A DNA stretch of 64,000 bases from Actinomycetota bacterium. Lineage in GTDB: Bacteria; Actinomycetota; Thermoleophilia; RBG-16-64-13. The position numbers and the translations under genes are program-made. Under the pieces are notes generated by a model, which worked only from the letters and a program-made list of their open reading frames with translations, ran no database searches and was not told the origin of the DNA. The stretch lies in contig JAHJSA010000052.1 of NCBI GenBank assembly GCA_018830645.1, positions 1 to 64,000 on the forward strand. The letters are read 5' to 3'. Shown in pieces: positions 11,713 through 36,142 of the stretch. How positions within the stretch are numbered: the stretch's first letter is position 1; each line of letters starts with the position of its first letter.

Positions 11713-12120
11713 TCAGCCGATCACCACCAGGTCGAGCCCGGGGATGTCTCCGAAGTCCACCCTATCTCTGGTGAGCAGGCGGTAGCCGTGCTGGATCGCC
11801 TGGCTTGCCAGCCATATGTCTTGCACTCGATAGCGATGTTGACGCCCCGCCCGTCGGATCTCGGCAGCCAGTGTGCCGAACACCTCACCCGTGACCCCGT
11901 CGATCGGGACAAGGGGCCGGCTCTGGAGTCGGCGTAGGCCGGCCAGTCTTTGCTGTCGTATGCCGGGATCGGCAGCAGTCTCCGCGCCGAATCTTAGTTC
12001 TGCGATGGTCACGGGTGAGAGGAACACCGGTTCGTCACGGGTGAAGGCGGCGACATCGCCCGGAGCCAGGACTCCTCTCTCGACATCGATCCACACACAG
12101 GTATCGATCAGGAAGCCCAT
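11713..12120 (-). CDS. vapC: VapC-type PIN-domain toxin
   Basis: A 135-residue PIN-domain ribonuclease. Acidic catalytic positions are visible: Asp6 in LIDTCVWID, Glu in TIAELRFGAE near residue 42, Asp in VQDIWLASQA near residue 100, and Asp in LLTRDRVDF near residue 118. It overlaps the upstream antitoxin gene by 13 bases, the usual toxin-after-antitoxin arrangement. It converges on the DUF4143 remnant. Confidence 0.92.
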   Translation of the reverse strand: MGFLIDTCVWIDVERGVLAPGDVAAFTRDEPVFLSPVTIAELRFGAETAADPGIRQQRLAGLRRLQSRPLVPIDGVTGEVFGTLAAEIRRAGRQHRYRVQDIWLASQAIQHGYRLLTRDRVDFGDIPGLDLVVIG

Positions 12121-12380
12121 GGGTCACGCAGTTCGTCGTCGAGGGCTCCGGTTCCAGGGAGGTCCCGGCTGTCGGCGAGCCAACCTGCTCCCGCTTCCGC
12201 GGGCAGCGTACGGTAGAGGTCGGCCATCGCTTCGAGGGCGGTTTGGTGGCCCGGCCCGGGGAGGATCCGGGCCACTTGGCGATGGTTGCGTACCACGATG
12301 ATCTCTTCGCCCTCGATGGCAAGCCGATCGAGGACTTCCCGCAGGTTTCGAGCCAGCTCGGTGGCGGTGATGGTTCGCAT
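12108..12380 (-). CDS. Phd/YefM-like antitoxin of the VapC pair
   Basis: A 90-residue protein starting MRTITATELARNLREVLDRL; 16 further residues upstream are open but lack family character. The N-terminal half resembles the Phd/YefM DNA-binding fold (EEIIVVRNHRQVARILPG), and the acidic C-terminus ending DDELRDPWAS would neutralise VapC. Antitoxin and toxin genes overlap, which suggests translational coupling and autoregulation. Confidence 0.85.
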   Translation of the reverse strand: MRTITATELARNLREVLDRLAIEGEEIIVVRNHRQVARILPGPGHQTALEAMADLYRTLPAEAGAGWLADSRDLPGTGALDDELRDPWAS

Positions 12381-12417
12381 GTCCTGCCTCGGTATGCGGA
12401 AAATCTGCTGTGCTCTG

Positions 12418-12423
12418 ATTATA
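12418..12423 (-). promoter_or_regulatory. Consensus -10 box of the antitoxin-vapC operon
   Basis: On the minus strand a perfect TATAAT lies 38 bases before the antitoxin ATG. No good -35 is seen at 16-18 bases. The surrounding sequence is unusually A+T-rich for this window. Confidence 0.4.
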
Positions 12424-12474
12424 CACATAGGGCTTTGACAGGGTGGCTACCGGCGCCGCCGGCGGTCGCACAAG

Positions 12475-14576: not shown

Positions 14577-14687
14577 GGCGGCGCGTGGAGTGAGGCAGAG
14601 GAGCCGCCGCGGCCGTTACGCGGCGCGGGCGGGGTGGGCCAGGCCGTGTCGTAGCGGTCGTCCGCAGGCCGGTGTATGGTGAGTGCC

Positions 14688-17228
14688 ATGGCAGCCAAAG
14701 AAGCGACCGCGAGGATCAAGATCAACAAGCTGCTCGAGGCGGCCGGCTGGCGCTTCTTCCCGGAAGGCGGTGAGCCGGCGAACATCCGTCTCGAGCTCAC
14801 CGCCACGATCAAGTCATCAGACCTGGATGCGCTTGGCGAGAACTTCGAGACGAGCGCCACGGGTTTCGTAGACTTTCTCCTCCTGGACGCCAAGGGATTC
14901 CCTCTGATCGTCTTGGAGGCGAAATCGGAGGACAAGAACCCGCTGGTTGGCAAGGAACAGGCCCGAAAGTACGCGCGTTCGCAGAACTGCCGCTTCGTCA
15001 TTCTCTCCAACGGCAACCTGCACTACTTCTGGGATCTGGAGCGGGGGAACCCTCACATCGTCTCCTCCTTCCCGACTCCGGACTCGGTCATCGGCTACCA
15101 GAAGGTCGCTCCCAACCCCGATCGCCTCATCAACGAGCAGGTGGGCGACGACTACATCGTGCTGACTCAGCGCCCGAACTATCAGTCCGAAGCGGCCTGG
15201 CGGAATGAGGCGGAGCGCCCCGGCTACATCCACAGCAACAAGCTGCGCTTCCTGCGGCCGTATCAACTGAATGCCATCCACGCCTTGCAGCGGGCGGTGA
15301 AAGACGGGAAGGATCGCTTCCTGTTCGAGATGGCCACCGGCACCGGCAAGACCCTCACCGCTGCCGCCGTCATCAAGCTGTTTCTCCGTTCCGGCAATGC
15401 CCGGCGGGTGCTGTTCCTGGTTGACCGCCTCGAACTTGAGGACCAGGCGAAGAAAGCCTTCGTTGCACTCTTGTCCGCCGATTTCCACACCGTGATCTAC
15501 AAGGAGAACCGGGACGACTGGCGGCGCGCTGAGATCGTAGTCTCGACGGTGCAGTCGCTCCTGGTCGGCAACAAGTACCAGGGGCTCTTCTCGCCCACCG
15601 ACTTCGACCTGGTGATCTCCGACGAAGCCCACCGCTCCATCGGCGGCAACGCCCGCGCCGTGTTCGACTACTTCATCGGATACAAGCTGGGCCTCACGGC
15701 CACGCCTCGCGACTATTTGCGCAGGTTCGACAAGACGAGCCGCTCCACCCGTGATCCGCGCGAGCTCGAGCGGCGGCTCCTGCTGGACACCTACCGCACC
15801 TTCGGCTGCGAGAACAGCTGGCCCACGTTCCGGTACTCCCTGCTGGACGGCGTGAAAGAGGGCTACCTGATCAACCCGACGGTGGTGGACGCGCGCACCG
15901 GAATCACGACAGAGCTGCTGTCCGAGGAAGGTTTCGTCGTTTCGTTCACCGACGACGAGGGGGAAGAGCGCGAGGAGGCGTTCAAGCAGCGGCAGTTCGA
16001 GAAGCGGTTCTTCGCCGACTCCACGAACCTGCTCTTCTGCAAGACATTCTTCGAGCATGCGCTGCGTGATCCCGTGAGCGGCGAGTTCGGCAAGTCGATC
16101 ATCTTCGCGGTCAGTCAGAACCACGCCGCCAAGCTGGCCCAGATCCTCAACCAGATGGCCGACCGCGTGTTCCCCGGGAAGTACCAGTCGGACTTCGCGG
16201 TGCAGGTGACCTCTCAGATTCCCGACGCCCAGCAGTTCACCATCAACTTCTCCAACAACAACCTTCTTGGCTCGAGCGACTTCTTGCCCGGCTACAAGAC
16301 CAGCAAGGCGCGCGTCTGCGTGACGGTCGGCATGATGACGACGGGCTATGACTGCACCGACATCCTCAACCTGGGTCTGTTCCGCCCCATCTTCTCGCCC
16401 ACGGACTTCGTGCAGATCAAGGGGCGCGGCACCCGAACGCACGACTTTCTCGACCAACTCTTCGACGACGGCCTCAAGGACGGTGTGCTGCAGCCGCGGA
16501 AGGTCACCTACAAGCTTTTCGACTTCTTCGCCAACTGTGAGTACTTCGAGGAGGGCTACAACTACGACGAAGTGCTGAAGCTGCCCCGGCTAACGGGCAG
16601 GGGCGGTGACGATAGCCCAGACGATGGCCCGGATGACATTGACGGCGCCTACGAGCATCCCGGCGAGGACGTCCTCTCCACGCTGCATGAGGAGATAATC
16701 GGCTACGAAGGCATGAAGATCGACCGCATGTTCTTCGAGAAGTTCGAGGACGCCGTGCGCGAGAATGAGACCATCGCCGCCGCCGTCGAGGCCGGGCAGT
16801 GGGATCACGTGATCGACTATGTCAACCGCGAGGTCTTCGACAAGCCGGAGGAGTACTACACACTCGACAAGCTGCGCAAAGCGGCCACCGTCGACCGTCG
16901 TCTCACGCTGCGCGAGATCCTCGAGAAGGTCTTCGGTCTCATCCCCCGCTTCAAGTCCAGGGATGAACTGCTCGAGGAGGAGTTCGCCAAGTTCGTCGCC
17001 GACTACAAGCCCGAGGAGGCCGCAGCCATCCCGGCCATCAAGACCTACTTTAAGGCCTACATCACCAGTGACCAGGTGCGCCATATAATCGAGAGCAGGC
17101 AGTTCACCGACCTGGCCACCAATCCGCTGTTCTCCACGCGCGATTTCCGGGCGGTGCCGCCGAAATATCGCACCATCGTCCCGGAGTACGTCAAGGACTA
17201 CGTCTCCTTGAACCAGTTCGCCGCGTAG
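14688..17228 (+). CDS. hsdR: Type I restriction enzyme R subunit (HsdR)
   Basis: A protein of about 846 residues that couples ATP-driven DNA translocation to cleavage. The N-terminal nuclease domain contains DFLLLDAKGFPLIVLEAKSE with the PD-(D/E)XK-like E-A-K core near residue 80. Helicase motif I is ATGTGKT near residue 215 and motif II is DEAH near residue 310. A later motif includes GMMTTGYDCTDILNLGLFRP and QIKGRGTR, and the C-terminus resembles the EcoEI R_C domain. The GGTGAG before ATG 14688 decides the start. KilA-N and methylase genes follow in the same direction. Without an intact specificity gene, activity of the complex is doubtful. Confidence 0.93.
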   Translation: MAAKEATARIKINKLLEAAGWRFFPEGGEPANIRLELTATIKSSDLDALGENFETSATGFVDFLLLDAKGFPLIVLEAKSEDKNPLVGKEQARKYARSQNCRFVILSNGNLHYFWDLERGNPHIVSSFPTPDSVIGYQKVAPNPDRLINEQVGDDYIVLTQRPNYQSEAAWRNEAERPGYIHSNKLRFLRPYQLNAIHALQRAVKDGKDRFLFEMATGTGKTLTAAAVIKLFLRSGNARRVLFLVDRLELEDQAKKAFVALLSADFHTVIYKENRDDWRRAEIVVSTVQSLLVGNKYQGLFSPTDFDLVISDEAHRSIGGNARAVFDYFIGYKLGLTATPRDYLRRFDKTSRSTRDPRELERRLLLDTYRTFGCENSWPTFRYSLLDGVKEGYLINPTVVDARTGITTELLSEEGFVVSFTDDEGEEREEAFKQRQFEKRFFADSTNLLFCKTFFEHALRDPVSGEFGKSIIFAVSQNHAAKLAQILNQMADRVFPGKYQSDFAVQVTSQIPDAQQFTINFSNNNLLGSSDFLPGYKTSKARVCVTVGMMTTGYDCTDILNLGLFRPIFSPTDFVQIKGRGTRTHDFLDQLFDDGLKDGVLQPRKVTYKLFDFFANCEYFEEGYNYDEVLKLPRLTGRGGDDSPDDGPDDIDGAYEHPGEDVLSTLHEEIIGYEGMKIDRMFFEKFEDAVRENETIAAAVEAGQWDHVIDYVNREVFDKPEEYYTLDKLRKAATVDRRLTLREILEKVFGLIPRFKSRDELLEEEFAKFVADYKPEEAAAIPAIKTYFKAYITSDQVRHIIESRQFTDLATNPLFSTRDFRAVPPKYRTIVPEYVKDYVSLNQFAA

Positions 17229-17237
17229 GAGGAAGAT

Positions 17238-18062
17238 ATGAGTGCAGCAAAGAGAATAACCATGGACGTTCTGGGCACGACCATCACGGTCCTTTCTCAG
17301 GGGGATGAGGACTACATTTCTCTCACCGACATGCTCAGAGCCAAAGACGGCGAGTTCTTCATTTCGGACTGGTTGCGGAACCGCAACACCGTGGAGTTCC
17401 TCGGAATATGGGAGCGCGTCCACAACCCCCACTTCAATTACGGCGAATTCGCCATAATTAGAAGCCAAGCGGGCCTCAACAGCTACAAGGTCAGCGTCAA
17501 GGAGTGGGTCGCCAAGACCAATGCCGTCGGTCTCCGGGCTACTGCTGGAAGATACGGCGGCACCTTCGCACACAGGGACATCGCCTTTGAATTCGGCATG
17601 TGGATCAGCCCCGAGTTCAAAGTCTACTTGATCAAGGAGTTCCAGCGCCTCAAGGAGGATGAAAACCGCCGCCTGTCGCTCGCCTGGAACCTGAACCGCA
17701 CTCTGTCCAAGCTCAACTACCGCATCCACACCGACGCCATCAAGTCGCACCTGATCCCGGCCACGGTTACGCACGCGCAGGCCGCCGTCACCTACGCCAA
17801 CGAAGCTGACATGCTCAACGTTGCCCTCTTCGGCCAGACTGCCAAAGAATGGCGGGACGCCAATCCCGCCCTGGAAGGCAACATGCGCGACTACGCCACC
17901 ATCGAGCAGCTGCTGGTCCTGGCCAATATCGAGGGCATGAACGCCGAACTCATTCACATGGGGCTGTCGCAAGGGGACCGCCTCGAACGCCTGAACGAAA
18001 TCGCCATCCGCCAGATGCAGGTGCTCACCTCTACGTCGGCGATCAAACAACTCAAGGAATAG
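17238..18062 (+). CDS. KilA-N domain protein in the restriction operon
   Basis: A 274-residue protein with an N-terminal KilA-N DNA-binding domain: DYISLTDMLRAKDGEFFISDWLRNRN, NSYKVSVKEWVAKTNAVGL and HRDIAFEFGMWISPEFKVYLIKEFQRL. The C-terminal part (ALFGQTAKEWRDANPALEGNMRDYATIEQLLVLANIEGMNAELI) is the conserved tail seen in chromosomal KilA-N proteins, quoted here in pieces. It sits 9 bases after hsdR and 3 bases before hsdM. KilA-N genes are recurrent passengers of type I restriction operons; the role may be regulation or DNA sensing, which is inference. Confidence 0.85.
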   Translation: MSAAKRITMDVLGTTITVLSQGDEDYISLTDMLRAKDGEFFISDWLRNRNTVEFLGIWERVHNPHFNYGEFAIIRSQAGLNSYKVSVKEWVAKTNAVGLRATAGRYGGTFAHRDIAFEFGMWISPEFKVYLIKEFQRLKEDENRRLSLAWNLNRTLSKLNYRIHTDAIKSHLIPATVTHAQAAVTYANEADMLNVALFGQTAKEWRDANPALEGNMRDYATIEQLLVLANIEGMNAELIHMGLSQGDRLERLNEIAIRQMQVLTSTSAIKQLKE

Positions 18063-18065
18063 CCC

Positions 18066-20051
18066 GTGCTCGACACCGACACCAAGCGCCGCATCGACAC
18101 CGCACGCGACATCCTCGTGGGCAAGGTGCCCGACCCCAAGAGCCAGGTGGAGCAGATCACCATCGCCCTCATCTACAAGTTCATGGACGACATGGACGCG
18201 GAGGCGGAAGAGCTCGGCGGGAAGCGGAAGTTCTTCGCCGAGGAGTTCGCCCGCTACGGATGGGCCAAGCTGATGCGGTCCGGGCTCGGCGGGCACGAGA
18301 CCCTCAACCTTTATGCCGAGGCCATCGCCAAGATGCCGGAGAACCCCGGTATCCCGCCCCTGTTTCGCGACATCTTCAAGAATGCGTATCTCCCGTATCG
18401 CGACCCCGAGACCCTACGCGCCTTTCTCAAGATCATCGACGAGTTCTCGTATGACCACAGCGAGAAGCTCGGCGACGCGTTCGAGTATCTGCTCTCCGTG
18501 CTCGGCTCCCAGGGCGACGCCGGGCAGTTCCGCACCCCGCGACACATCATCGACTTCATGGTGGCCATCGTCGACCCGAAGAAGAGCGAGACCGTGCTCG
18601 ACCCGGCCTGCGGCACGGCGGGGTTTCTGATCTCGTCCTGGAAGCACATCCTCCAGGCCAACACCGACGCGGCCGGGAACAGCACGCTGACGCCGGACGA
18701 CAGGGGCCGCCTGGCGCAGAACTTCACGGGCTACGACATCTCGCCCGACATGGTGCGCCTTTCGCTCGTGAACATGTATCTGCACGGCTTCGCCGATCCG
18801 CACATCGCCGAGTACGACACGCTCACCTCGCAGGACAAGTGGAACGAACACGCCGACGTGATCCTCGCCAACCCGCCCTTCATGTCGCCAAAGGGGGGCA
18901 TCAAGCCGCACAATCGCTTCTCGGTGCAGTCGAAGCGCAGCGAAGTGCTGTTCGTGGACTACATGGCCGAGCACCTCACACCCAGTGGCCGCGCGGGCAT
19001 CATCGTGCCCGAGGGCATCATCTTCCAGAGCCAGAACGCCTACAAGCAACTGCGGAAGATGCTGGTGGAGGAGTACCTCGTTGCGGTTGTGTCGCTGCCG
19101 GCGGGGGTGTTCCAGCCCTACTCAGGCGTGAAGACTTCGGTCTTGATTCTCGAAAGGGCGCTGGCAAAGCGGGCCAGCACCATTGCCTTCTTCAAGGTCG
19201 AGAACGACGGGTACGGTCTTGGTGCCCAGCGGCGCGAGATCGGCAAGAACGACCTGCCGCAGGCGCGCGTCGAGATCGCCGAGTACCTGCTCCGCGTGCG
19301 GGCGGGGGAGTCGGTGGAGGATTTCGCGCCGACGCTCGGGCTGGTGGTGCCGAAGGAGAAGATCGCGGCGAATGGCGACTACAACCTGAGCGGGGAGCGG
19401 TATCGGGAGGGAGTGGTCTCAGCCACCGCCTACACGCTCGTGCCGGTCGGGCGATTCATGAAGCAAGGCGTGAAGACTATTGATCCACGGAACACGCCCG
19501 ACGAGGTCTTCGAGCTCTGGAGTATCCCCGCGCATGATGCGGGTAGCCCCGACGTGATCCGTGGTAGCGACATCGGATCTCAGAAGAAGACCGTCCTTCC
19601 TGGCGATGTCCTCTTGTCACGGATCATTCCCCACATTCGGCGCAGCTGCGTTGTTCGAGAGAGCGCGCCCAGGCGACGGCAGATCGCCTCCACCGAGTGG
19701 ATTGTGTTCTCGAGCGACGACGTTGTGCCCGCCTTTCTCAGCCACATGCTTGTTTCCGATCCATTTCATGCGTGCTTCATGCAGACGATCACCGGAGTTG
19801 GAGGCTCGCTCTCCCGCGCTAATCCGACGGCGGTCGGCGAAATCCAAATCCCTCTGCCGCCATTGGATGTGCAGAAGGAGATCGTGGCGGAGATCGAGGG
19901 CTACCAGAAAGTCATCGACGGCGCCCGCGCGGTTCTCGACAACTACCGCCCCCACATCCCTATTCACCCCGACTGGCCGATGGTGCTGACGTTCCGCACT
20001 TCTCGCAGTCGATATACGCCCCCGCTTCAGGGGGCGTTTGTCCCGGTGTAG
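18066..20051 (+). CDS. hsdM: Type I N6-adenine methylase fused to an S-like half, truncated by IS insertion
   Basis: Residues 1 to about 440 form HsdM: an N-terminal helical domain, SAM motif LDPACGTAGFL near residue 177, and catalytic NPPF near 270. Residues from about 450 carry an HsdS-like half with one target-recognition domain (TIDPRNTPDEVFELWSIPA ... IQIPLPPLDVQKEIVAEIE) and the start of a conserved helix. At codon 640 the frame enters the inverted repeat of an IS element and ends in 20 IS-encoded residues. The rest of the specificity part is not found beyond the IS. The methylase core is intact, but target recognition is probably lost or altered. Confidence 0.9.
   Translation: MLDTDTKRRIDTARDILVGKVPDPKSQVEQITIALIYKFMDDMDAEAEELGGKRKFFAEEFARYGWAKLMRSGLGGHETLNLYAEAIAKMPENPGIPPLFRDIFKNAYLPYRDPETLRAFLKIIDEFSYDHSEKLGDAFEYLLSVLGSQGDAGQFRTPRHIIDFMVAIVDPKKSETVLDPACGTAGFLISSWKHILQANTDAAGNSTLTPDDRGRLAQNFTGYDISPDMVRLSLVNMYLHGFADPHIAEYDTLTSQDKWNEHADVILANPPFMSPKGGIKPHNRFSVQSKRSEVLFVDYMAEHLTPSGRAGIIVPEGIIFQSQNAYKQLRKMLVEEYLVAVVSLPAGVFQPYSGVKTSVLILERALAKRASTIAFFKVENDGYGLGAQRREIGKNDLPQARVEIAEYLLRVRAGESVEDFAPTLGLVVPKEKIAANGDYNLSGERYREGVVSATAYTLVPVGRFMKQGVKTIDPRNTPDEVFELWSIPAHDAGSPDVIRGSDIGSQKKTVLPGDVLLSRIIPHIRRSCVVRESAPRRRQIASTEWIVFSSDDVVPAFLSHMLVSDPFHACFMQTITGVGGSLSRANPTAVGEIQIPLPPLDVQKEIVAEIEGYQKVIDGARAVLDNYRPHIPIHPDWPMVLTFRTSRSRYTPPLQGAFVPV
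19985..20023 (+). repeat. Left terminal inverted repeat of the IS element
   Basis: Begins GCTGACGTTCCGCACTTC and matches the right end perfectly over 22 bases (19985-20006), then imperfectly to the CCCCC near 20023. Confidence 0.85.
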
Positions 20052-27531: not shown

Positions 27532-27641
27532 AGTGGCGGACTGCGAACGAGGGGTGAGCCACCACCATTGCGGCTTGACGTGTGGGGAACACCGCACGTC
27601 TCCTTCCCCCGCCACGCCTGGTGGTAGACTCTGCCCCTGCC

Positions 27642-28829
27642 ATGACGCCACCCTCATCATTCCACCGAGCAACCGCCTCCGAGGCTGACGTGGAAACCGC
27701 CGCCGCCGCACTCGAGTGCTCCGAGGTCGCCGCGGAAACCGCCGCCGCCGCGACTCTGACCGCCATCGAGGCCAAGATCGAGGCCGGCGAGCGCCTCTCC
27801 GCCGCCGACGGCTTGACCCTCCTCACGACCCCGGATCTTCTCCGGGTGGGCCGCTTGGCCGACGAGGTCCGGCGGCGCAAGGTCGGCGATGACGTCTTCT
27901 TCATCAACAACCGGCATATCAACCACACCAACGTGTGCAAGAACAGGTGCGACTTCTGCGCGTTCTCTCGCGACGACGGCGAAGAGGGCGCCTACACCAT
28001 GAGCCTGGCGGAGGTGCTCGGCCGGGCCCGCGAGTCGCTCGCCGAGGGCATCACCGAGCTGCACATCGTGGGGGGCGAACACCCCGATCTGCCGTACCCC
28101 TCCATCCGCGAGATGATCGCCCGCCTCCACGAGCTGGCGCCCGACGTGCACCTCACCGCCTTCACCGCCTCCGAGATCGTGCACTTCGCCGGGCAGAGCG
28201 GCATGAGCGAGGAAGAGGTGCTGCTCGACCTGAAGTCGGTGGGGTTGGGCAGCCTCCCGGGCGGGGGCGCCGAGGTGTTCGCCCGCCGGGTGCGCGACCA
28301 GGTGTGCGCCAAGAAGATCTCCGGCGAGAAGTGGCTGGAAGTGCACAAGCTCGCCCACCGGTGCGGCCTCCGCACCAACGCCACCATGCTCTACGGTCAC
28401 GTCGAGACGTACGAAGAGCGCATCGACCACCTCATACGGCTGCGTGACGCGCAGGACGAGACCGGCGGGTTCCAGGCGTTCATCCCCCTAGCCTTCCACC
28501 CGCGCAACACCAAGCTCTCGGACCTGGCCCCCACCACCGGGGTCGACGATCTCAAAATGCTGGCGGTGGCCCGCCTCATGCTCGACAATTTCGACCACAT
28601 CAAGGCCTACTGGGTGATGGTCGGACTCAAGCTTGCCCAGATCAGTCTCTACTTCGGCGTGGACGACGTCGACGGCACCATAGTGGAGGAGACGATCACC
28701 AGGGCGGCGGGTTCGGAGGCGGGGCAGGCGGTTTCGCGGAACGAGTTGGTGCGCATCATCCGGGACACGGGGCGCGCCGCCGTCGAGCGCGACACGCTCT
28801 ACGAAGTCGTGAGACGGTACGACACGTGA
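27642..28829 (+). CDS. mqnE: Aminofutalosine synthase
   Basis: A 395-residue radical SAM enzyme of the futalosine menaquinone pathway; it joins the chorismate-derived enolpyruvyl product to SAM's adenosyl part. The cluster motif CKNRCDFC follows FFINNRHINHTNV near residue 93. Downstream marks are LHIVGGEHPDLPY, SLPGGGAEVFARRVRDQVC and FIPLAFHPRNTKL, as in MqnE. ATG 27642 was chosen because the residues before the first helix are unconserved. A short Ala-rich N-terminal extension is unusual. Its stop overlaps the GTG of mqnA. Confidence 0.95.
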   Translation: MTPPSSFHRATASEADVETAAAALECSEVAAETAAAATLTAIEAKIEAGERLSAADGLTLLTTPDLLRVGRLADEVRRRKVGDDVFFINNRHINHTNVCKNRCDFCAFSRDDGEEGAYTMSLAEVLGRARESLAEGITELHIVGGEHPDLPYPSIREMIARLHELAPDVHLTAFTASEIVHFAGQSGMSEEEVLLDLKSVGLGSLPGGGAEVFARRVRDQVCAKKISGEKWLEVHKLAHRCGLRTNATMLYGHVETYEERIDHLIRLRDAQDETGGFQAFIPLAFHPRNTKLSDLAPTTGVDDLKMLAVARLMLDNFDHIKAYWVMVGLKLAQISLYFGVDDVDGTIVEETITRAAGSEAGQAVSRNELVRIIRDTGRAAVERDTLYEVVRRYDT

Positions 28830-29719
28830 CCGTCCGAGTGGGTCACATCGAGTTTCTGAACTGCTTCCCCCTCTACCACGGGTTGGAGCGGCGCGCCGCC
28901 GCGGGCCTGTCGAGCCCCACCGAGTTCGAGTTGGTGCCCGGCGTGCCCACCGACCTCAACCGCATGCTGGTGTCGGGTACCATCGACTTCGGGCCGATCA
29001 GCTCCATCGCCTACGCACGAGACCACGGCCAACTTCTTCTCAGCCGCAGGCTCTCCATCTCCTCGCGGGGGGCGGTGGACAGCATCCAACTTGTGGCCCG
29101 CAAGCCGCTCGAGGAGTTGAACCGGGTGGCGCTGACGCCCAAGAGCGCGACCTCGGTGGCCCTTCTGAAGACCATGCTGAAGCTGAGGTACGGCGTGGAG
29201 CCGCTCTATGAGGAGTTGACCACCACCCCCGAGCAGGCGTTGATCGAGAGCGACGCGGTGCTTCTCATCGGCGACGACGGGCTGCAGGCTCTCTACTTTC
29301 CCGTCGAGGGCGCGACATGTCACGACCTCGGTCGCTTGTGGCGGGAGTGGACCGGCCTTCCCATGGTGTTCGCCGTGTGGGCGACGCGCAGGGATTTCTT
29401 GGCGAAGCACGAGGCGGAGTTGGTCGCGGTCGAGGGAGAGTTGGTGGCGTCCATCGAGGCGAGCCGCGGCGCGAAGGGCGAGGTAGTCGAGTCAGCACTG
29501 GGGCTGTGGCGGTTCGACAAGCCCTGCCTCGACCGCTACTTCGAGGTGTTGAAGTACGGGTTCGACGAGGAGTATCGCCGCGGGCTCGAGCGTTTCTATG
29601 AATTGGCCCTCGAGGCCGGCGAGTTGGTGGAGGCGCCGGAACTCGCGTTCTTCGGCGCTGACGAGGTGTCCACGGAGGGTGCGCCCGCTGGGGGCGCCAC
29701 CGCCGAGGATCGCGCATGA
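28826..29719 (+). CDS. mqnA: Chorismate dehydratase
   Basis: A 297-residue periplasmic-binding-protein-fold enzyme that converts chorismate to 3-[(1-carboxyvinyl)oxy]benzoate, the first futalosine-pathway step. Typical segments are VGHIEFLNCFPLYHGLE, VPTDLNRMLVSGTIDFGPISSI, RRLSISSRGAVDSIQLV and LLIGDDGLQAL. There is no signal peptide, so it is cytoplasmic. It overlaps mqnE and mqnC by four bases each, giving a tight operon. Confidence 0.95.
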   Translation: MTVRVGHIEFLNCFPLYHGLERRAAAGLSSPTEFELVPGVPTDLNRMLVSGTIDFGPISSIAYARDHGQLLLSRRLSISSRGAVDSIQLVARKPLEELNRVALTPKSATSVALLKTMLKLRYGVEPLYEELTTTPEQALIESDAVLLIGDDGLQALYFPVEGATCHDLGRLWREWTGLPMVFAVWATRRDFLAKHEAELVAVEGELVASIEASRGAKGEVVESALGLWRFDKPCLDRYFEVLKYGFDEEYRRGLERFYELALEAGELVEAPELAFFGADEVSTEGAPAGGATAEDRA

Positions 29720-30804
29720 TTCGCGGCGGGGCCATCGGCCCGGCGCTGGCGCGTAGGCTCGAGGCCGGCGAACGTCTGGACGACACCGACGCGGTCGCCC
29801 TTCTGCGCTCCCGCGACCTCCTGACCTTGGGTCGGCTCGCCGGCCAGCGTCGGCGGACACAGGTGCCGGGGGATCGCGTCACCTTCATCATCGATCGGAA
29901 TATCAACTACAGCAACGTGTGCGTCACGGGCTGCGACTTCTGCGCGTTCTACCGCTCACCCGACACCGAGGGTGCCTACGTCCTGAGTAAGGATGAGATC
30001 TTCGCCAAAGTGCAGGAGACCCTCGACTTGGGCGGCACTGCCGTCATGATGCAGGGCGGTCACCACCCGGAGCTGGACATCGCCTACTACGAAGACCTCT
30101 TCTCGTCGATCAAAGAGCGCTTCGAGATCACGATCCACTCGCTGTCGCCGCCGGAGGTACTGCACATCGCTTCCTTGAGCGGGCTGACCGTGCGTGACAC
30201 CCTGCAGCGACTCCGCGTCGCCGGACTCGACTCGCTACCGGGGGGCGGGGCCGAGATCCTCGTGGATAGAGTGCGCCTTCAGTTGGCGCCGAAGAAGGCG
30301 CGCACCGAGCCGTGGCTCGGCGTGATGCGCGAGGCCCACCTGCTCGGCATGAGCACCACCGCCACCATGATGTTCGGCAACGTGGAGACGCTCGAGGAGC
30401 GGGTGGAGCATCTGCGTCGCATCCGCGACCTCCAGGACGAGACCGGTGGCTTCCGGGCGTTCATCCCCTGGACGTTCCAGGGGGGCAACACGGCGCTCGA
30501 AGGTACCGTGGAGCCCGCGACCGCGGTCGACTACTTGACGACCCTGGCCGTCTCTCGCCTCTACCTGGACAACGTCGCCAATATCCAGGCGTCGTGGGTC
30601 ACCCAAGGGTTGAAGGTGGGGCAGACCGCCCTGTTGTTCGGCGCGAACGACCTGGGCAGCACCATGATCGAGGAGAACGTGGTGGCGGCGGCCGGCGTGT
30701 CGTTCAGCGTTGGTGCCGACGATCTCGTGCGGGCCATCCGCGCTGCCGGTTTCGTGCCCGCGCAGCGGCGCACGGACTACTCGATCGTACGGATTTTCCG
30801 CTAG
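29716..30804 (+). CDS. mqnC: Cyclic dehypoxanthinylfutalosine synthase
   Basis: A 362-residue radical SAM enzyme that cyclises dehypoxanthinylfutalosine. The cluster motif CVTGCDFC follows FIIDRNINYSNV near residue 60. MqnC marks are VMMQGGHHPELDIAYYEDL, SLPGGGAEILVDRVR, FIPWTFQGGNTAL and GSTMIEENVVAAAG. Last gene of mqnE-A-C. MqnB and MqnD are not in the window. Confidence 0.96.
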   Translation: MIRGGAIGPALARRLEAGERLDDTDAVALLRSRDLLTLGRLAGQRRRTQVPGDRVTFIIDRNINYSNVCVTGCDFCAFYRSPDTEGAYVLSKDEIFAKVQETLDLGGTAVMMQGGHHPELDIAYYEDLFSSIKERFEITIHSLSPPEVLHIASLSGLTVRDTLQRLRVAGLDSLPGGGAEILVDRVRLQLAPKKARTEPWLGVMREAHLLGMSTTATMMFGNVETLEERVEHLRRIRDLQDETGGFRAFIPWTFQGGNTALEGTVEPATAVDYLTTLAVSRLYLDNVANIQASWVTQGLKVGQTALLFGANDLGSTMIEENVVAAAGVSFSVGADDLVRAIRAAGFVPAQRRTDYSIVRIFR

Positions 30805-30835
30805 AGCGCCGGGCCACTTATGCCGATAGATACCG

Positions 30836-30888
30836 ATAGCGGCTCGGCGGAGCGCAAGCTATGCTTGCAGGCGTAGAGAGCGGGTTCC
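30836..30888 (+). promoter_or_regulatory. Structured leader before the multiheme cytochrome
   Basis: ATAGC (30836-30840) pairs with GCTAT (30858-30862), enclosing a GCTC-GGCG-GAGC hairpin and an unpaired GCAA. A GTAGAGAGCGGGTTCC segment follows. The layout loosely recalls a c-di-GMP-I riboswitch, but the canonical GCAAA and ACGCAAAG strings are incomplete, so only a structured leader is claimed. Confidence 0.3.
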
Positions 30889-30945
30889 TGAAGTGGGGAA
30901 TCTCCGCCATCTTCGTGAACGACAGTGACGAGGTGGCGGCTTGCT

Positions 30946-30977
30946 GACGAGTGAGAGGCATGACGAGTGAGAGGCAG
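30946..30977 (+). repeat. 16-bp tandem duplication at the cytochrome start
   Basis: TGACGAGTGAGAGGCA occurs twice in direct succession, spanning the likely start codon and duplicating the possible ribosome binding sequence GAGAGG. Confidence 0.8.
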
Positions 30978-33695
30978 GGTGGCGGCGCACTTGTGACTGA
31001 GAACACAACCAGAGCGAGGCGCCTGTTTCTGATTGCGGGTGCCGCGCTGGTGGTGGTTGCAGGATTCGTAGCCGCGGCCTCCGCGGCCGACGTCACTCCG
31101 CCCACCCTCACGAGCACGACCCCCGCGAACGGCGCCACGGGCGTGCCCGTGAACGGCTTCGTGACGATCGTGTTCAGCGAGTCCATGAATCCGAGCACCC
31201 TCACGAACGACCTGGTGCAGCTGCGCATCGGGGCCGTCCCTGTGTCGGCCGAGACGGTGGTGCTGCACGCCGACCGTTCGCGGGTCTACGTCTACCCCGA
31301 TCAGATGATGGAAGTGAACACCGTCTACACCATCTGGATCTCGGGTACGGTCACCGACCTTGCGGGCAACCCGCTCGGGGCAGCCGTCTCACGTACCTTC
31401 ACCACCGCTCTCACGGGGATCACGCCGCACGGCGGATACTCGAACGCGAGCAACCTGTGTCGCAACTGCCACTCGCCACACGGGGCGGCCGCGGCGGGCA
31501 CCTACGGCGGCAAGATATTCCCGCAGTCGCAGGAGACGGACGTCTGCTACATGTGCCACGACGGCACCGGCGCGGCCACCAATGTGAAGGCGGTCTTCCT
31601 GCTCGCCGGCACCGGCCACGAGGTGAACGACTCCACGACCGTCCCCGGCCCCGGCCTAACGAGCAGGTGCTCGTCGTGCCACGGCGCTCACTATCCGGCT
31701 TCGGGCGCCGGAGGCAAGCCCAAGCTCTACAAGCCCACCATCAATGCGACCGCGGTCACGGGCAACAACTACACGTGGTGCGAAGCCTGCCACGACGACA
31801 CCTACAGCTGGGTGGTGCCGCCGTACCCCTACCCCTCAGGCGGCATCAACGCGACGCGGCCCCTGCGGGCGGCCAACGGCTACCCAACCCTGGGCACGTA
31901 CCCCGGCCGCACCACCTACAACAACACCACGTACAACCCGCACAACCCAACCACGTCCACAAACGTGATCTGGCCTTCGTCGGGCCGGACCTCGGGCGAC
32001 TGCCGCAACTGCCACGCCTCGCACCGGAACACGGCCACCTACGACGCGCTCGTGGCGACCTACCGGCCGACACCCGACGCAGCCACCGCCCAGTCCGACC
32101 GGCAGAACGGCACCTACGCCCTCCTGTGCTTCACCTGCCACGACGGCAGCCCCTCGACGAGGAACATCCTGCAGTACGTCTCGTACGACTACAACCTCAC
32201 CGGCCCCGACTACACGGGTGGCCATCGCATCTTCACGGCCGGCGGCACGCTTTCGGTGGGAGCCCCCCTGCCCTGCTACTACTGCCACAACGCGCACGGT
32301 TCCAAGGGCAACAACGGGACCCAGGCCAATCGCAAGCTCATCTCCGACGAGCAGTGGTCGAACATCGACACCACCACCATCGCGGGTGTCGTGAACTTCT
32401 GCTTCAAGTGCCACCTGCCCTGGCAGCGGGTGGCGGGGAGCGGAGACGCCCTGGCCAATACCATCCCCGCGGGCGAGCTCACGACGATCGTGGGCCTCGA
32501 CCGGCGCACGGCCGCCAACAAGCTCTCGCTCATCTCGGGGATCACGGCCCACGGCGAGACCAACCGGGTCACCCCGACGGCGAGCTGCTACGACTGCCAC
32601 GGCAACAGCTACGCTGCGCCCAGCGCCACCACCGGCTACAACGTGCATCGCCCGAACCGGGGCGGGAGCTGCGTGAGCTGTCACGGCGTGGCACAGGACG
32701 CGGGCGACGGCGCCCCCACCCGCCGCGCGATCGTGGGTGAGTTCTCGCTCACCGGCCGCCACGTGATGGGCGGGGCTGTCACCGACAAGGACTGCGGCGT
32801 TTGCCACATGGAGGGCGACTCAGCCACGGGCAACATCATCTCGGCCAACCACAAGAACAATGCCATCAACTTCCGCGACCCCGACACCGGCGCCGCCGCC
32901 GCGACCGCCGTCACCACTTTCACCCGCAACACCGCCTCGAACTCCCTCGAAGCCTGGGTCACCAACGTGCAGAACAACCTCTGTTTCAAGTGTCACGACG
33001 CGGACGGCGCCGCGAGCACAGCCGCCCGGGTGTCTCCAGGTGGCACGGCCCTGCGGCCGTTCAGCAGCAACACGCGCGACGTGCCGAACATCTTCAGCGC
33101 TTTCGCCACCACGAACAACTTCCACCACGCAGTCCGCGGTGCGGGCACCAACCCCTACGCCACCCCCACCGCCACGAACGGCAACGTCATCACTATGGTG
33201 GCGCCGTGGAACCAGACGGCGAACTCCCACAACGTGATCTCCTGCTTCGACTGCCACATCGCGGCGGGCTCCGGTCACGGCGGCACGAACCGCTACATGT
33301 TGCGCGTGAACGTGGGCACTATCGCTTCGCCGAACTACACGGGTCAGCGCGACCTGTGCATCCGCTGCCACAAGCAGAGTGTCTACGAGACAAACGACGC
33401 GGGTTCGCGCTTCCGTGACCACGACATCGGGCAGCACAAGCTGAGCACCAACGCGTACGGCTGCCGGGGCTGCCACGCCGGCCTGGTGGAACGCGACGGT
33501 GCGACCGTGTGGAACGGCAGCCCGGGCAACATCCACGGGGGCAACTGGACGTGGCCTTCGGGCACCGGCGCCCAAACCCCGGGTATCACCACGAAGGCCT
33601 TCCTTTATGGGGGATGGCTCGGAGGACTCGATCCCACCACCGCGGCCTGCTACGGGGGCGACTGCAGCCACAAGACCAGCCCGAGATCCTACTAA
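30960..33695 (+). CDS. Secreted multiheme c-type cytochrome with N-terminal Ig-like domain (15 CXXCH)
   Basis: About 911 residues from ATG 30960 (GTG 30951 and GTG 30993 are alternatives). A basic N-terminus is followed by a signal helix (LFLIAGAALVVVAGFVAAA), then an SbsA/Big_5-type Ig-like domain: PPTLTSTTPANGATGVPVNG ... VFSESMNPSTL. Fifteen CXXCH heme sites are spread over residues about 160-850: CRNCH, CYMCH, CSSCH, CEACH, CRNCH, CFTCH, CYYCH, CFKCH, CYDCH, CVSCH, CGVCH, CFKCH, CFDCH, CIRCH and CRGCH. No C-terminal anchor is visible. It is followed by its own ResB, CcsA and small membrane protein. A role in extracellular electron transfer is plausible, with the Ig-like domain binding the wall or surface layer; the substrate is unknown. 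Confidence 0.93.
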   Translation: MTSERQGGGALVTENTTRARRLFLIAGAALVVVAGFVAAASAADVTPPTLTSTTPANGATGVPVNGFVTIVFSESMNPSTLTNDLVQLRIGAVPVSAETVVLHADRSRVYVYPDQMMEVNTVYTIWISGTVTDLAGNPLGAAVSRTFTTALTGITPHGGYSNASNLCRNCHSPHGAAAAGTYGGKIFPQSQETDVCYMCHDGTGAATNVKAVFLLAGTGHEVNDSTTVPGPGLTSRCSSCHGAHYPASGAGGKPKLYKPTINATAVTGNNYTWCEACHDDTYSWVVPPYPYPSGGINATRPLRAANGYPTLGTYPGRTTYNNTTYNPHNPTTSTNVIWPSSGRTSGDCRNCHASHRNTATYDALVATYRPTPDAATAQSDRQNGTYALLCFTCHDGSPSTRNILQYVSYDYNLTGPDYTGGHRIFTAGGTLSVGAPLPCYYCHNAHGSKGNNGTQANRKLISDEQWSNIDTTTIAGVVNFCFKCHLPWQRVAGSGDALANTIPAGELTTIVGLDRRTAANKLSLISGITAHGETNRVTPTASCYDCHGNSYAAPSATTGYNVHRPNRGGSCVSCHGVAQDAGDGAPTRRAIVGEFSLTGRHVMGGAVTDKDCGVCHMEGDSATGNIISANHKNNAINFRDPDTGAAAATAVTTFTRNTASNSLEAWVTNVQNNLCFKCHDADGAASTAARVSPGGTALRPFSSNTRDVPNIFSAFATTNNFHHAVRGAGTNPYATPTATNGNVITMVAPWNQTANSHNVISCFDCHIAAGSGHGGTNRYMLRVNVGTIASPNYTGQRDLCIRCHKQSVYETNDAGSRFRDHDIGQHKLSTNAYGCRGCHAGLVERDGATVWNGSPGNIHGGNWTWPSGTGAQTPGITTKAFLYGGWLGGLDPTTAACYGGDCSHKTSPRSY

Positions 33696-33737
33696 CCCAC
33701 GAGCGGACCCGAGCGGGCTTCGACCGCCGGCGGGCCG

Positions 33738-34910
33738 ATGGAGCCGTCACCTAACATCATGCGCCTGTTCGCCCCGTTAGTGCGGGCCCTCTATTCCACG
33801 TGGAGCACCGTGGCGGTCGTCGCGGCCTTTACCTTGCTGTGCGTCGCGGGCGCCATGCTCCCGCAGGTGGGCGCCGTCAGCGATTCCGCTCTCGACCTGT
33901 GGAAGAGCGATCACCCGGTCGTGACGGCCGTGGCCGAGCCGCTCGGCCTCTACGAGGCGTTCTCGTCCATCCCGTTCATGGTGCTGTTGGCTGCCCTGGC
34001 CGTGAACATGGTGGCGTGCACCACCCGACGGGCGATCCTGTCGCGGAAGGCGCGGGGTGGTGCGGCGGTGGCGTTGGGCGGCTCGCTCGTCCTGCACGTC
34101 GGGCTGCTGGCGCTGCTGGCGGGTGGGGCGGTCACGGCGGGGTCGAGCATCGATGGGCGAATCGTGGCGACCGAGGGCCAGGTGATCGATCTCTCCCGGG
34201 AAGACCAGTACCTGGACCTGAGGCGTGGCGTGTGGGCGGACGGTGCACTCCCGGGATATGCGCTGGGTGTCGAATCATCGCGTCCGGTGAGTGATGGCGG
34301 CGTCTCCACCGCCGTGGAGAGCGTGCTGGCGGTGGCGGAACCTGGAGCAGAGACCGTCTCACGGCCTCTCGGAGTCAATCGCCCCGTGCGACTCGAGGGC
34401 GTGGTGCTGACGCACGCCGACTGGGGCTTCTCCCCGCTGCTGACAGTGGTCTCTCCTGCAGGCGAGGTGTTGGTTGACGCGTACGTGGCGCTCTTGTCCG
34501 TGCACGGAGGGGGCGCAGGTGCATACGAGGACGTCGTGGAGGCTCCGGGGTTGCCCGGCACGGTGCGGCTGCGACTGCTGCCGGACGTCCGTATACAGGA
34601 CGGGACGGCCGTCTCCGTATCACCCGAGCCCCGCAATCCCGCGCTCGAGATCTCGGTGCTCGCTGAGGACGGCACGGTTGTGGAGTCGGGGCTCGCGTTC
34701 CTGGGTTCCGAGGCGGAGGTGCAGGGATTCAACTTCGCCTTCGGTGACCTTCGGCGGTGGACCGCGGTGCGGGTGAGGGCTGATTCAGGCCGGTTCGTCG
34801 TGTACGCTGGGTTCGCAATCGGGCTGTTCGGATTGCTCGTGCGCTACGCGCCTGCGATCTGGGCGGCAGCGCGCAGTCGGCGGTCCACTGGCAATGAGGT
34901 GAGCGCGTGA
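33738..34910 (+). CDS. resB: Cytochrome c biogenesis protein ResB (second operon)
   Basis: A 390-residue protein with the ResB plan: two N-terminal helices (TVAVVAAFTLLCVAGAMLPQ and a segment ending AALAVNMVACTTRR), a third (GGSLVLHVGLLALLAGG), a large exported domain and a final helix (FVVYAGFAIGLFGLLVRY). ATG 33759 is an alternative start. It lies 42 bases after the cytochrome gene and overlaps ccsA, so it is likely dedicated to heme loading of that cytochrome. Confidence 0.88.
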   Translation: MEPSPNIMRLFAPLVRALYSTWSTVAVVAAFTLLCVAGAMLPQVGAVSDSALDLWKSDHPVVTAVAEPLGLYEAFSSIPFMVLLAALAVNMVACTTRRAILSRKARGGAAVALGGSLVLHVGLLALLAGGAVTAGSSIDGRIVATEGQVIDLSREDQYLDLRRGVWADGALPGYALGVESSRPVSDGGVSTAVESVLAVAEPGAETVSRPLGVNRPVRLEGVVLTHADWGFSPLLTVVSPAGEVLVDAYVALLSVHGGGAGAYEDVVEAPGLPGTVRLRLLPDVRIQDGTAVSVSPEPRNPALEISVLAEDGTVVESGLAFLGSEAEVQGFNFAFGDLRRWTAVRVRADSGRFVVYAGFAIGLFGLLVRYAPAIWAAARSRRSTGNEVSA

Positions 34911-35728
34911 GACCCATCGAAGCTTGGCTGTTCTGGATCACCACGGGATTGTACGTGGTCGCGTTCGTGGCGACTCTGCTGGGCATGGTGTTCCAGCGCC
35001 CGGTGTGGCGCACGACGGGCCTTGTCGCGGTGCTCGCGGGCCTGGTGGCCAACACGGGGGCCGCGGCCGCCCGGTGGGTGCTGGCCGGACACATGCCGGT
35101 GGGGGACCGGTACGAACTCAACGTAAGCGGCTCGTGGGTCGCCATGGTCGTGGTAGTGGGTGTGGTGCTCGCGGCGCCGCGGCTCCGGCCGCTGCTCGTC
35201 GGCGCTCTGCCGCCTGTGATCCTCGCGCTCGGCATCGGCATCACGTCGCCCACCGCCATCGGACCGCTTTCAGCCGCTTATGACAGCGGCTGGCTCGCCG
35301 TGCACGTGGTGTTTGCCTTCTTGGCCTTCGGGTGTTTCGTACTGGCCTTCAGCGCCGCGGCCATCTATCTGGCCGAAGGCTGGGGAGCCACCGTGCGGGT
35401 GCGCGCCGGTCTGCCGGAGGGTGAGGCGCTCGAGGACCTCTCGTACCGCATGGTGGTCGCGGGCTTCATCTTCGAGGCGGTCATGATCGCCTCGGGGGCC
35501 GTCTGGGCGAACGACCTGTGGGGCACCTACTGGAGCTGGGACCCGGTGGAGGTGTGGTCGCTCATCTCGTTCCTGGTGTACGCCCTCTACCTGCACCTGC
35601 GCACGTTCGCGGGCTGGCGGGGACGGCGGTCGGCAGTCGTTGCGGTTCTCGGCTTGGTGTTCGTGTTCCTCTCGTTCTGGGGGGTACAGTGGTTGGTGCC
35701 GACCGTTCACGATTTCAACCAGTTCTAG
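34907..35728 (+). CDS. ccsA: Cytochrome c biogenesis protein CcsA (second operon)
   Basis: A 273-residue polytopic membrane protein with the WWD motif WGTYWSWDPVEVWSLISF near residue 203 and a conserved His in LAVHVVFAFLAFG. The GTG start overlaps the ResB stop. It is a paralogue of 1274-2089; the pair with ResB suggests two parallel cytochrome c assembly systems in this genome. Confidence 0.93.
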   Translation: MRPIEAWLFWITTGLYVVAFVATLLGMVFQRPVWRTTGLVAVLAGLVANTGAAAARWVLAGHMPVGDRYELNVSGSWVAMVVVVGVVLAAPRLRPLLVGALPPVILALGIGITSPTAIGPLSAAYDSGWLAVHVVFAFLAFGCFVLAFSAAAIYLAEGWGATVRVRAGLPEGEALEDLSYRMVVAGFIFEAVMIASGAVWANDLWGTYWSWDPVEVWSLISFLVYALYLHLRTFAGWRGRRSAVVAVLGLVFVFLSFWGVQWLVPTVHDFNQF

Positions 35729-35740
35729 GAGGAGCGGACG

Positions 35741-36142
35741 GTGGCGCGTAAATCGACAACCACGCGGGGGATACTCGTAGTCCTCAACAACTTTCTTCAC
35801 GATCTTGCCACGGGGACGTGGGTGGCGGCCAACGCGTTCCAGTGGGGCGTACTGCGCTGGAGACATGGGGGGCACGGGCCGGTAGACCCGGAGACAGCGG
35901 CCGGGCTTCGTGCGGTGCGCACGGCGGGCCGCGTCTCCTTGCTGTGGATCGTCGGGGGTGGAGTGGTGCGCGCTCTCACCTTCCGCCGGTATGAGTGGTC
36001 GGACGCGGCGGGGCGTGGGCAGCTCGGCCTTCTCGGAGTGAAGCACATGCTGCTCTTCGGGGCGGTCGCGGCCGGGCGGCGTCTCGAGCGGCAGGTGGCG
36101 GCGGCCCAGGAGCCGGAGCGGGGCACAGAGTCCCGGGGGTAG
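35741..36142 (+). CDS. Small membrane protein with LNNFLHDLATG motif (second copy)
   Basis: A 133-residue protein preceded by AGGAGCG. It shares LNNFLHDLATGTW, a GVVRAL segment and VKHML with the protein at 3182-3568. Three hydrophobic segments are shorter and more polar than in the first copy. Association with ResB-CcsA in both operons suggests a conserved accessory to cytochrome c maturation or to the cytochrome itself. Confidence 0.75.
   Translation: MARKSTTTRGILVVLNNFLHDLATGTWVAANAFQWGVLRWRHGGHGPVDPETAAGLRAVRTAGRVSLLWIVGGGVVRALTFRRYEWSDAAGRGQLGLLGVKHMLLFGAVAAGRRLERQVAAAQEPERGTESRG

Follow-up and report, generated by a model that had tools for sequence, protein, structure and literature searches.

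The 15-heme cytochrome described here is considered to be an exported electron-transfer protein of a monoderm actinobacterium, with bis-His ligation of all its hemes and its own maturation genes, a reading to which we give a probability of roughly 60%. It is encoded in a stretch of 64,000 nucleotides, referred to as the window, on contig C47 of a 3.87 Mb genome that is 99.84% complete. That a cytochrome of the wall or surface may come with genes for its own maturation is a known idea; the variant found here is new. Electron passage through the Gram-positive wall is poorly known, and the loading of tens of hemes onto a single chain has been little studied. If the reading is right, a giant wall cytochrome tied to its own two-gene synthase, and occurring in long-stalk, short-stalk and stalkless versions, makes both questions testable.

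Table 1 Features of the window that are discussed in the text
Feature	Position	Strand	Basis
Second ResB-CcsA pair, tail of a second giant Ig-cytochrome operon continuing on contig C66	3..2089	+	
MqnE, futalosine menaquinone pathway	27582-28829	+	NCBIfam over cut-off
MqnA-like, futalosine pathway	28826-29719	+	PF02621
MqnC, futalosine pathway, directly upstream of the cytochrome	29716-30804	+	NCBIfam over cut-off
Window-unique 298 bp, holding the present signal peptide	30783..31080	+	LH_M24 alignment
15-heme exported cytochrome, 914 aa	30951..33695	+	ORF, motif count; start uncertain
Big_5 (SbsA-type Ig-like) domain	31089..31406	+	Pfam
Heme head: 15 CXXCH and 20 free His, 19 of them conserved	31416..33692	+	Motif count, ortholog alignment
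CYGGDCSH at the C-terminus (residues 900-907), probably a disulfide with a His ligand	33648..33671	+	
ResB (CcsB-type cytochrome c synthase subunit)	33738..34910	+	PF05140, 82.6 bits
CcsA-type heme lyase subunit, WSWDPVE motif	34907..35728	+	PF01578, 120 bits

The reading frame of the cytochrome is intact and its product is exported. The start codon is uncertain (30951, ATG 30960 or GTG 30993), and a signal peptide, TTRARRLFLIAGAALVVVAGFVAAASA followed by AD, can be read by eye. All 15 matches to the CXXCH codon pattern on the two strands of the window fall within this gene, at 31458-33476, as against a mean of 3.3 and a largest value of 9 in 100 dinucleotide shuffles; 30 of the 32 cysteines of the protein lie within these motifs. 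The preliminary description of this DNA had proposed 15 CXXCH sites on one exported chain with an SbsA-type Ig-like domain at the N-terminus, and both statements are borne out, the latter by a Big_5 match at residues 47-152 (73 bits, Pfam cut-off 23.6). The Pfam models Cytochrome_C7, Paired_CXXCH_1 (PF09699, 64 bits against a cut-off of 20.6) and MtrC/MtrF II-IV (PF22113, domains II/IV, at residues 160-283) also pass their cut-offs, and the paired-CXXCH domain is the only NCBIfam model to do so. With several CXXCH motifs, a paired-CXXCH match and export, the protein has the predicted character of a multiheme c-type cytochrome. Two copies of a 16-bp direct tandem repeat (window 30945-30976) span the alternative start codons, within the segment that is unique to the window.

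The two genes behind the cytochrome probably attach its hemes. ResB starts 42 bp after the cytochrome stop codon and overlaps CcsA by 4 bp. The pair has the sequence features of a System II synthase, PF05140 and PF01578 both being over cut-off and the WSWDPVE motif being of the WWD type; TIGR03144 of NCBIfam gives 167 bits, under its cut-off of 187.6. Three of the 18 genomes of the family contain ResB, namely the window's own (G000), LH_M24 (G001, a sister species in the same genus) and G012. All five ResB loci of the family lie within giant-cytochrome operons, although for one locus the assignment has to bridge a gap between contigs. Two stand behind the present cytochrome (window 33738 and LH_M24 C6:235.9k), and their ResB has close orthologs in these two genomes only (2/18); that of G012 lies directly behind a related giant cytochrome. 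At LH_M24 C6:261.5k the order is TPR, 12-heme Ig cytochrome, TPR, ResB and then a CcsA-like frame. The left end of the window together with contig C66 has the same TPR/cytochrome/TPR/ResB order, interrupted by the contig break and assigned by alignment to LH_M24. The order cytochrome-ResB-CcsA is found in G000, G001 and G012, and at the three loci examined in f51, another family of the phylum (G519, G568 and G549, with 19, 19 and 61 CXXCH respectively), where CcsA was recognised by its motif in G568 and G519 and by Pfam in G549, in which the motif is degenerate. The G549 cytochrome (L068:5624-19711, minus strand) is a single frame of 4695 residues, with no CXXCH among the first 1622; ResB and CcsA come after it.

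It is somewhat unlikely that ResB-CcsA is the general System II synthase of the cell and stands beside these cytochromes by chance. Such a role would fit the lack of co-divergence: distance matrices of the heads and of ResB or CcsA in eight operons have no significant correlation (rho 0.29 and 0.17, values reached in 468 and 682 of 5000 permutations), and in G012 the head resembles the C66 type (55%) yet CcsA is nearest to the window type (41%). It would also fit G005, which makes the cytochrome without ResB: neither this genome (91% complete) nor G013 (64% complete), both of which carry the cytochrome, has a detectable ResB, and the cytochrome-ResB-CcsA order is absent in G005. A chance neighbourhood is, however, hard to reconcile with the two pairs in G000 and the two in G001, each of them in a giant-cytochrome operon, or with the lack of ResB in 15 of the 18 family genomes, although several of these, such as G005, carry many multiheme proteins. 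That the synthase is dedicated is thus a proposal based on gene order and distribution, and not on co-evolution or experiment.

The heme head is lineage-restricted. Relatives of the whole head occur in 4 of 399 genomes of the class and 4 of 18 of the order, counting the window's own: G000, G001 (88% identity to the window head), G005 (56%) and G013 (75%). In G013 the contig ends within the gene, and the alignment row stops after heme 12. Across the phylum, a head profile at 1e-15 matches 12 of 396 genomes, again including the window's own, and the loci of 4 of the other 11 were examined (the three f51 genomes and G621). Wherever sequence exists, all 15 CXXCH motifs are conserved in the orthologs, as are 19 of the 20 free histidines (12 in all four rows and 7 in the three full rows), the exception being His725. 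When distant relatives are added, nine CXXCH and six free histidines are invariant in all 11 rows. Relative to LH_M24, dN/dS is 0.05 around hemes 1-2 and 0.13 in the remaining head, compared with 0.28 in Big_5; on this measure the 15-CXXCH head is under purifying selection. The 19 conserved free histidines are enough for bis-His ligation of all 15 hemes. That Big_5 had recently been converted by the C66 paralog was considered, its protein being closer to the paralog (77% identity) than to the ortholog (72%); the idea was dropped because synonymous divergence disagrees (dS 0.88 and 0.67 respectively).

The survey of homologues for the same domain order, proposed in the preliminary description, shows that the head is kept in relatives while the stalk changes. 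The window and LH_M24 align at 87% over 27751-30782 and at 84% over 31081-36099; between these, LH_M24 has 3417 bp in place of the 298 bp of the window, comprising a TPR gene and the beginning of the cytochrome gene. The LH_M24 cytochrome frame is 1696 residues long and has a signal peptide of its own. An anchor-V domain, in which there is a CX4CH site, and several Ig domains (three Big_5 stretches) belong to this N-terminal part, and the stalk exceeds that of the window by about 780 residues. The G005 ortholog (1228 residues) has two Big_5 stretches, and the distant relatives G568 and G519 have no Ig domain by Pfam. Among the relatives compared, the window cytochrome is the shortest form that bears an Ig domain. 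The G013 ortholog (L052:1134-5282, at least 1383 residues) has a hydrophobic N-terminal segment and a TPR region fused before the stalk, the TPR protein being a separate gene immediately upstream of the cytochrome in LH_M24. The ortholog stalks contain no CXXCH, as whole-protein counts equal head counts, so that heme hopping through the stalk is impossible and the stalk is best regarded as a spacer.

The earlier suggestion of an Ig-like domain with no membrane anchor has to be corrected. The translated window gene shows no hydrophobic anchor at the C-terminus; the Ig region, however, is a variable spacer, and G013 has the hydrophobic segment at its N-terminus. By Pfam the cytochrome has no S-layer domain, and no wall-anchoring domain was found in it, and the head with its single Ig domain may simply be released.

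Could the secreted protein, with its many probable bis-His hemes, polymerise as an extracellular wire in the manner of OmcS, OmcE or OmcZ? The spare histidines (19 for 15 hemes) could ligate a heme of a neighbouring subunit, and the C-terminal histidine is conserved. We consider polymerisation rather improbable, since none of the solved cytochrome filaments is matched by sequence, and the stalk present on most orthologs is better suited to tethering. More improbable still is that the short form is a decayed remnant, left non-functional by a deletion that took the TPR gene and the greater part of the stalk. The replacement of the 3417 bp of LH_M24, with TPR gene, anchor-V domain and Ig stalk, by 298 bp would be explained in this way, but the junction is at an Ig domain boundary and keeps the reading frame of a good signal peptide, none of the 15 heme motifs has been lost, dN/dS is low (though it averages over the time before the deletion as well), and G568 and G519 have no Ig domain at all.

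Periplasmic homologues of the nitrite or sulfite reductase type had been named in advance as the finding that would speak against a role at the wall. In a PDB search with the 11-row core profile, the best matches are NrfA 3ubr (E 9.5e-7) and the octaheme nitrite reductase 8rv0 (E 9.6e-7), at 31 bits and across three generic CXXCH sites; the NCBIfam hits to NrfB are below cut-off. CXXCK is absent from the cytochrome, and an active site of the nitrite-reductase kind was not found in it. The Tyr after the CAQCH site of NrfA and the His of AQH, which we take to be active-site residues of the nitrite reductase, are at positions not kept in the profile alignment. The single sequence matches no PDB chain up to E 10, and alignment A1 none up to E 0.01. 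OcwA, which may be absent from the PDB copy searched, is not named among the profile hits. AlphaFold models fail on the heme part, with a mean pLDDT of 29.7 for Big_5 plus the head (4 rows) and 31.0 for the common core (11 rows). The profile match is read as reflecting the shared architecture of multiheme proteins, and with generic sites, no CXXCK, the two residues missing and an empty single-sequence search, a reductase of the NrfA or octaheme type between membrane and wall is very improbable, the profile and sub-threshold NrfB matches notwithstanding.

The cysteines outside CXXCH form the C-terminal CYGGDCSH, which had been described as not a standard heme site; this holds, and the spacing varies among relatives. 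The other full-length orthologs have CYGGDCAH (LH_M24) and CYGGQCHH (G005). Of the 9 proteins whose C-terminus can be read, 7 have a Cys pair near the end (window, LH_M24, G005, G568, G519, G549 and G012), spaced as CX4C in three, CX5C in one, CX7C in one and CX11C in two, while both C66-type paralogs have one Cys at that place. Except in G012, the pair is followed by a His no more than 5 residues further on. Because the spacing varies, a disulfide that positions a His ligand is more likely than a non-standard 16th heme site. The Ser after the second Cys in the window protein also counts against a 16th heme. In its favour, the G005 sequence contains CX4CH and, together with the CX4CH of the LH_M24 anchor-V domain, suggests that CX4CH heme sites may exist in the lineage. 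Contig C66 also encodes (L038:10142-14464) an exported protein of 1440 residues with 35 CXXCH and 12 CX4CH, giving 47 distinct CH sites; the sister-species counterpart has 1169 residues and 42 sites.

The host is probably monoderm, as the preliminary description had supposed in speaking of a Gram-positive lineage. Omp85 is absent from the nearly complete genome, making an outer membrane unlikely, and the same search was positive in 7 of 14 control genomes. The PF22113 match is a likeness to MtrC/MtrF; MtrC, however, is a lipoprotein of the outer membrane and occurs with MtrAB, whereas the host genome has no outer membrane marker. The CXXCH pattern is matched 418 times genome-wide, compared with 200 in a reversed control, and 21 frames with at least four CXXCH, including the window gene, were counted in the stretches examined. 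The succession of genes in the window is ResB-CcsA, HemL, Rex, UbiD-family menaquinone decarboxylase, UbiA, UbiE, MqnE, MqnA-like, MqnC, cytochrome, ResB and CcsA, which looks like a respiration island and fits quinol-linked electron export without proving it. In G005 the ortholog is downstream of five multiheme genes (7, 12, 11, 20 and 10 CXXCH), with TPR and NHL genes between them.

Electron transfer across or on the wall, as first proposed, remains the best-supported role of the cytochrome, judging from the lack of an enzyme signature, the sufficient histidines, the multiheme neighbours in G005 and the cultured monoderm Anaerosomatales described below, whose kinship is a guess; it is the reading of the stalk that needs correction. 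The head would sit in or on the wall, its hemes loaded by the adjacent ResB-CcsA pair, and would hand on electrons that come from the menaquinone pool, by way of the cell's other multiheme proteins, towards Fe(III) or some other acceptor outside the cell. The Ig stalk, which carries no heme, would set the distance from the membrane, as a spacer and not as a wire. A broader and doubtful proposal is that some monoderm Actinomycetota share a self-contained type of operon that builds giant wall cytochromes, consisting of a TPR chaperone, a freely exchanged heme-free stalk on a related head (12 to 61 CXXCH) and a private ResB-CcsA; this synthase would recognise the Cys pair and His at the C-terminus as a tag or an unconventional heme site.

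No domain combination or operon of this kind was found in the literature searched, which was limited to open-licence papers. In the available portion of PMC9012536, ANME MHC-B always adjoins a special CcmF2. The likeness is that of a very large multiheme protein with electron transfer through a wall layer, no outer membrane and a divergent heme-attachment gene alongside; MHC-B is, however, archaeal and served by a System I CcmF, whereas the present protein has ResB-CcsA and an Ig-like domain, and no S-layer domain was found (PMC9012536, in part). If our reading is true, the MHC-B/CcmF2 pairing would have its bacterial equivalent, based on System II, in the present operon. OcwA, OmhA and SmhB/SmhC, according to extracts of PMC7829351, are likewise secreted multiheme proteins of monoderm Fe(III) reducers with a proposed role in terminal or wall electron transfer, but have 6-11 hemes as against 15 here, and the present protein by itself matches no PDB chain. 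NrfI, CcsA1, NrfEFG and SirEFG resemble the present arrangement in that heme-attachment genes lie beside the cytochrome served, with TPR chaperones in some; they differ in serving CXXCK, CX15CH and CX12NKGCH, whereas 15 of 15 motifs here are standard, and NrfI and CcsA1 are described as dedicated lyases for unusual motifs (passages of PMC6976685). NHL and TPR proteins accompany extracellular-electron-transfer cytochromes in Dethiobacter (PMC10376724, in excerpt). Cultured Anaerosomatales, from what an extract of PMC9686372 gives, are monoderm with 17-18 multiheme proteins, and one respires Fe(III); that the host is their kin and belongs to Coriobacteriia/Anaerosomatales is a guess.

Some minor observations may be added. 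Multiheme genes recur near a membrane NHL propeller and a TPR protein at L039 and L041 of the host genome and at L049 of G005, with a Wzy_C-TPR protein additionally in L039 and L041. The window has no Rfam matches and no tRNA, and a promoter and terminator scan was uninformative. A PIN-type toxin and Phd-type antitoxin pair can be recognised by eye on the minus strand (window 11713-12428), and is also present in LH_M24. HsdR-like, KilA-N-like and HsdM-like frames follow one another at window 14676-20051, again by eye, and are perhaps a type I restriction system.
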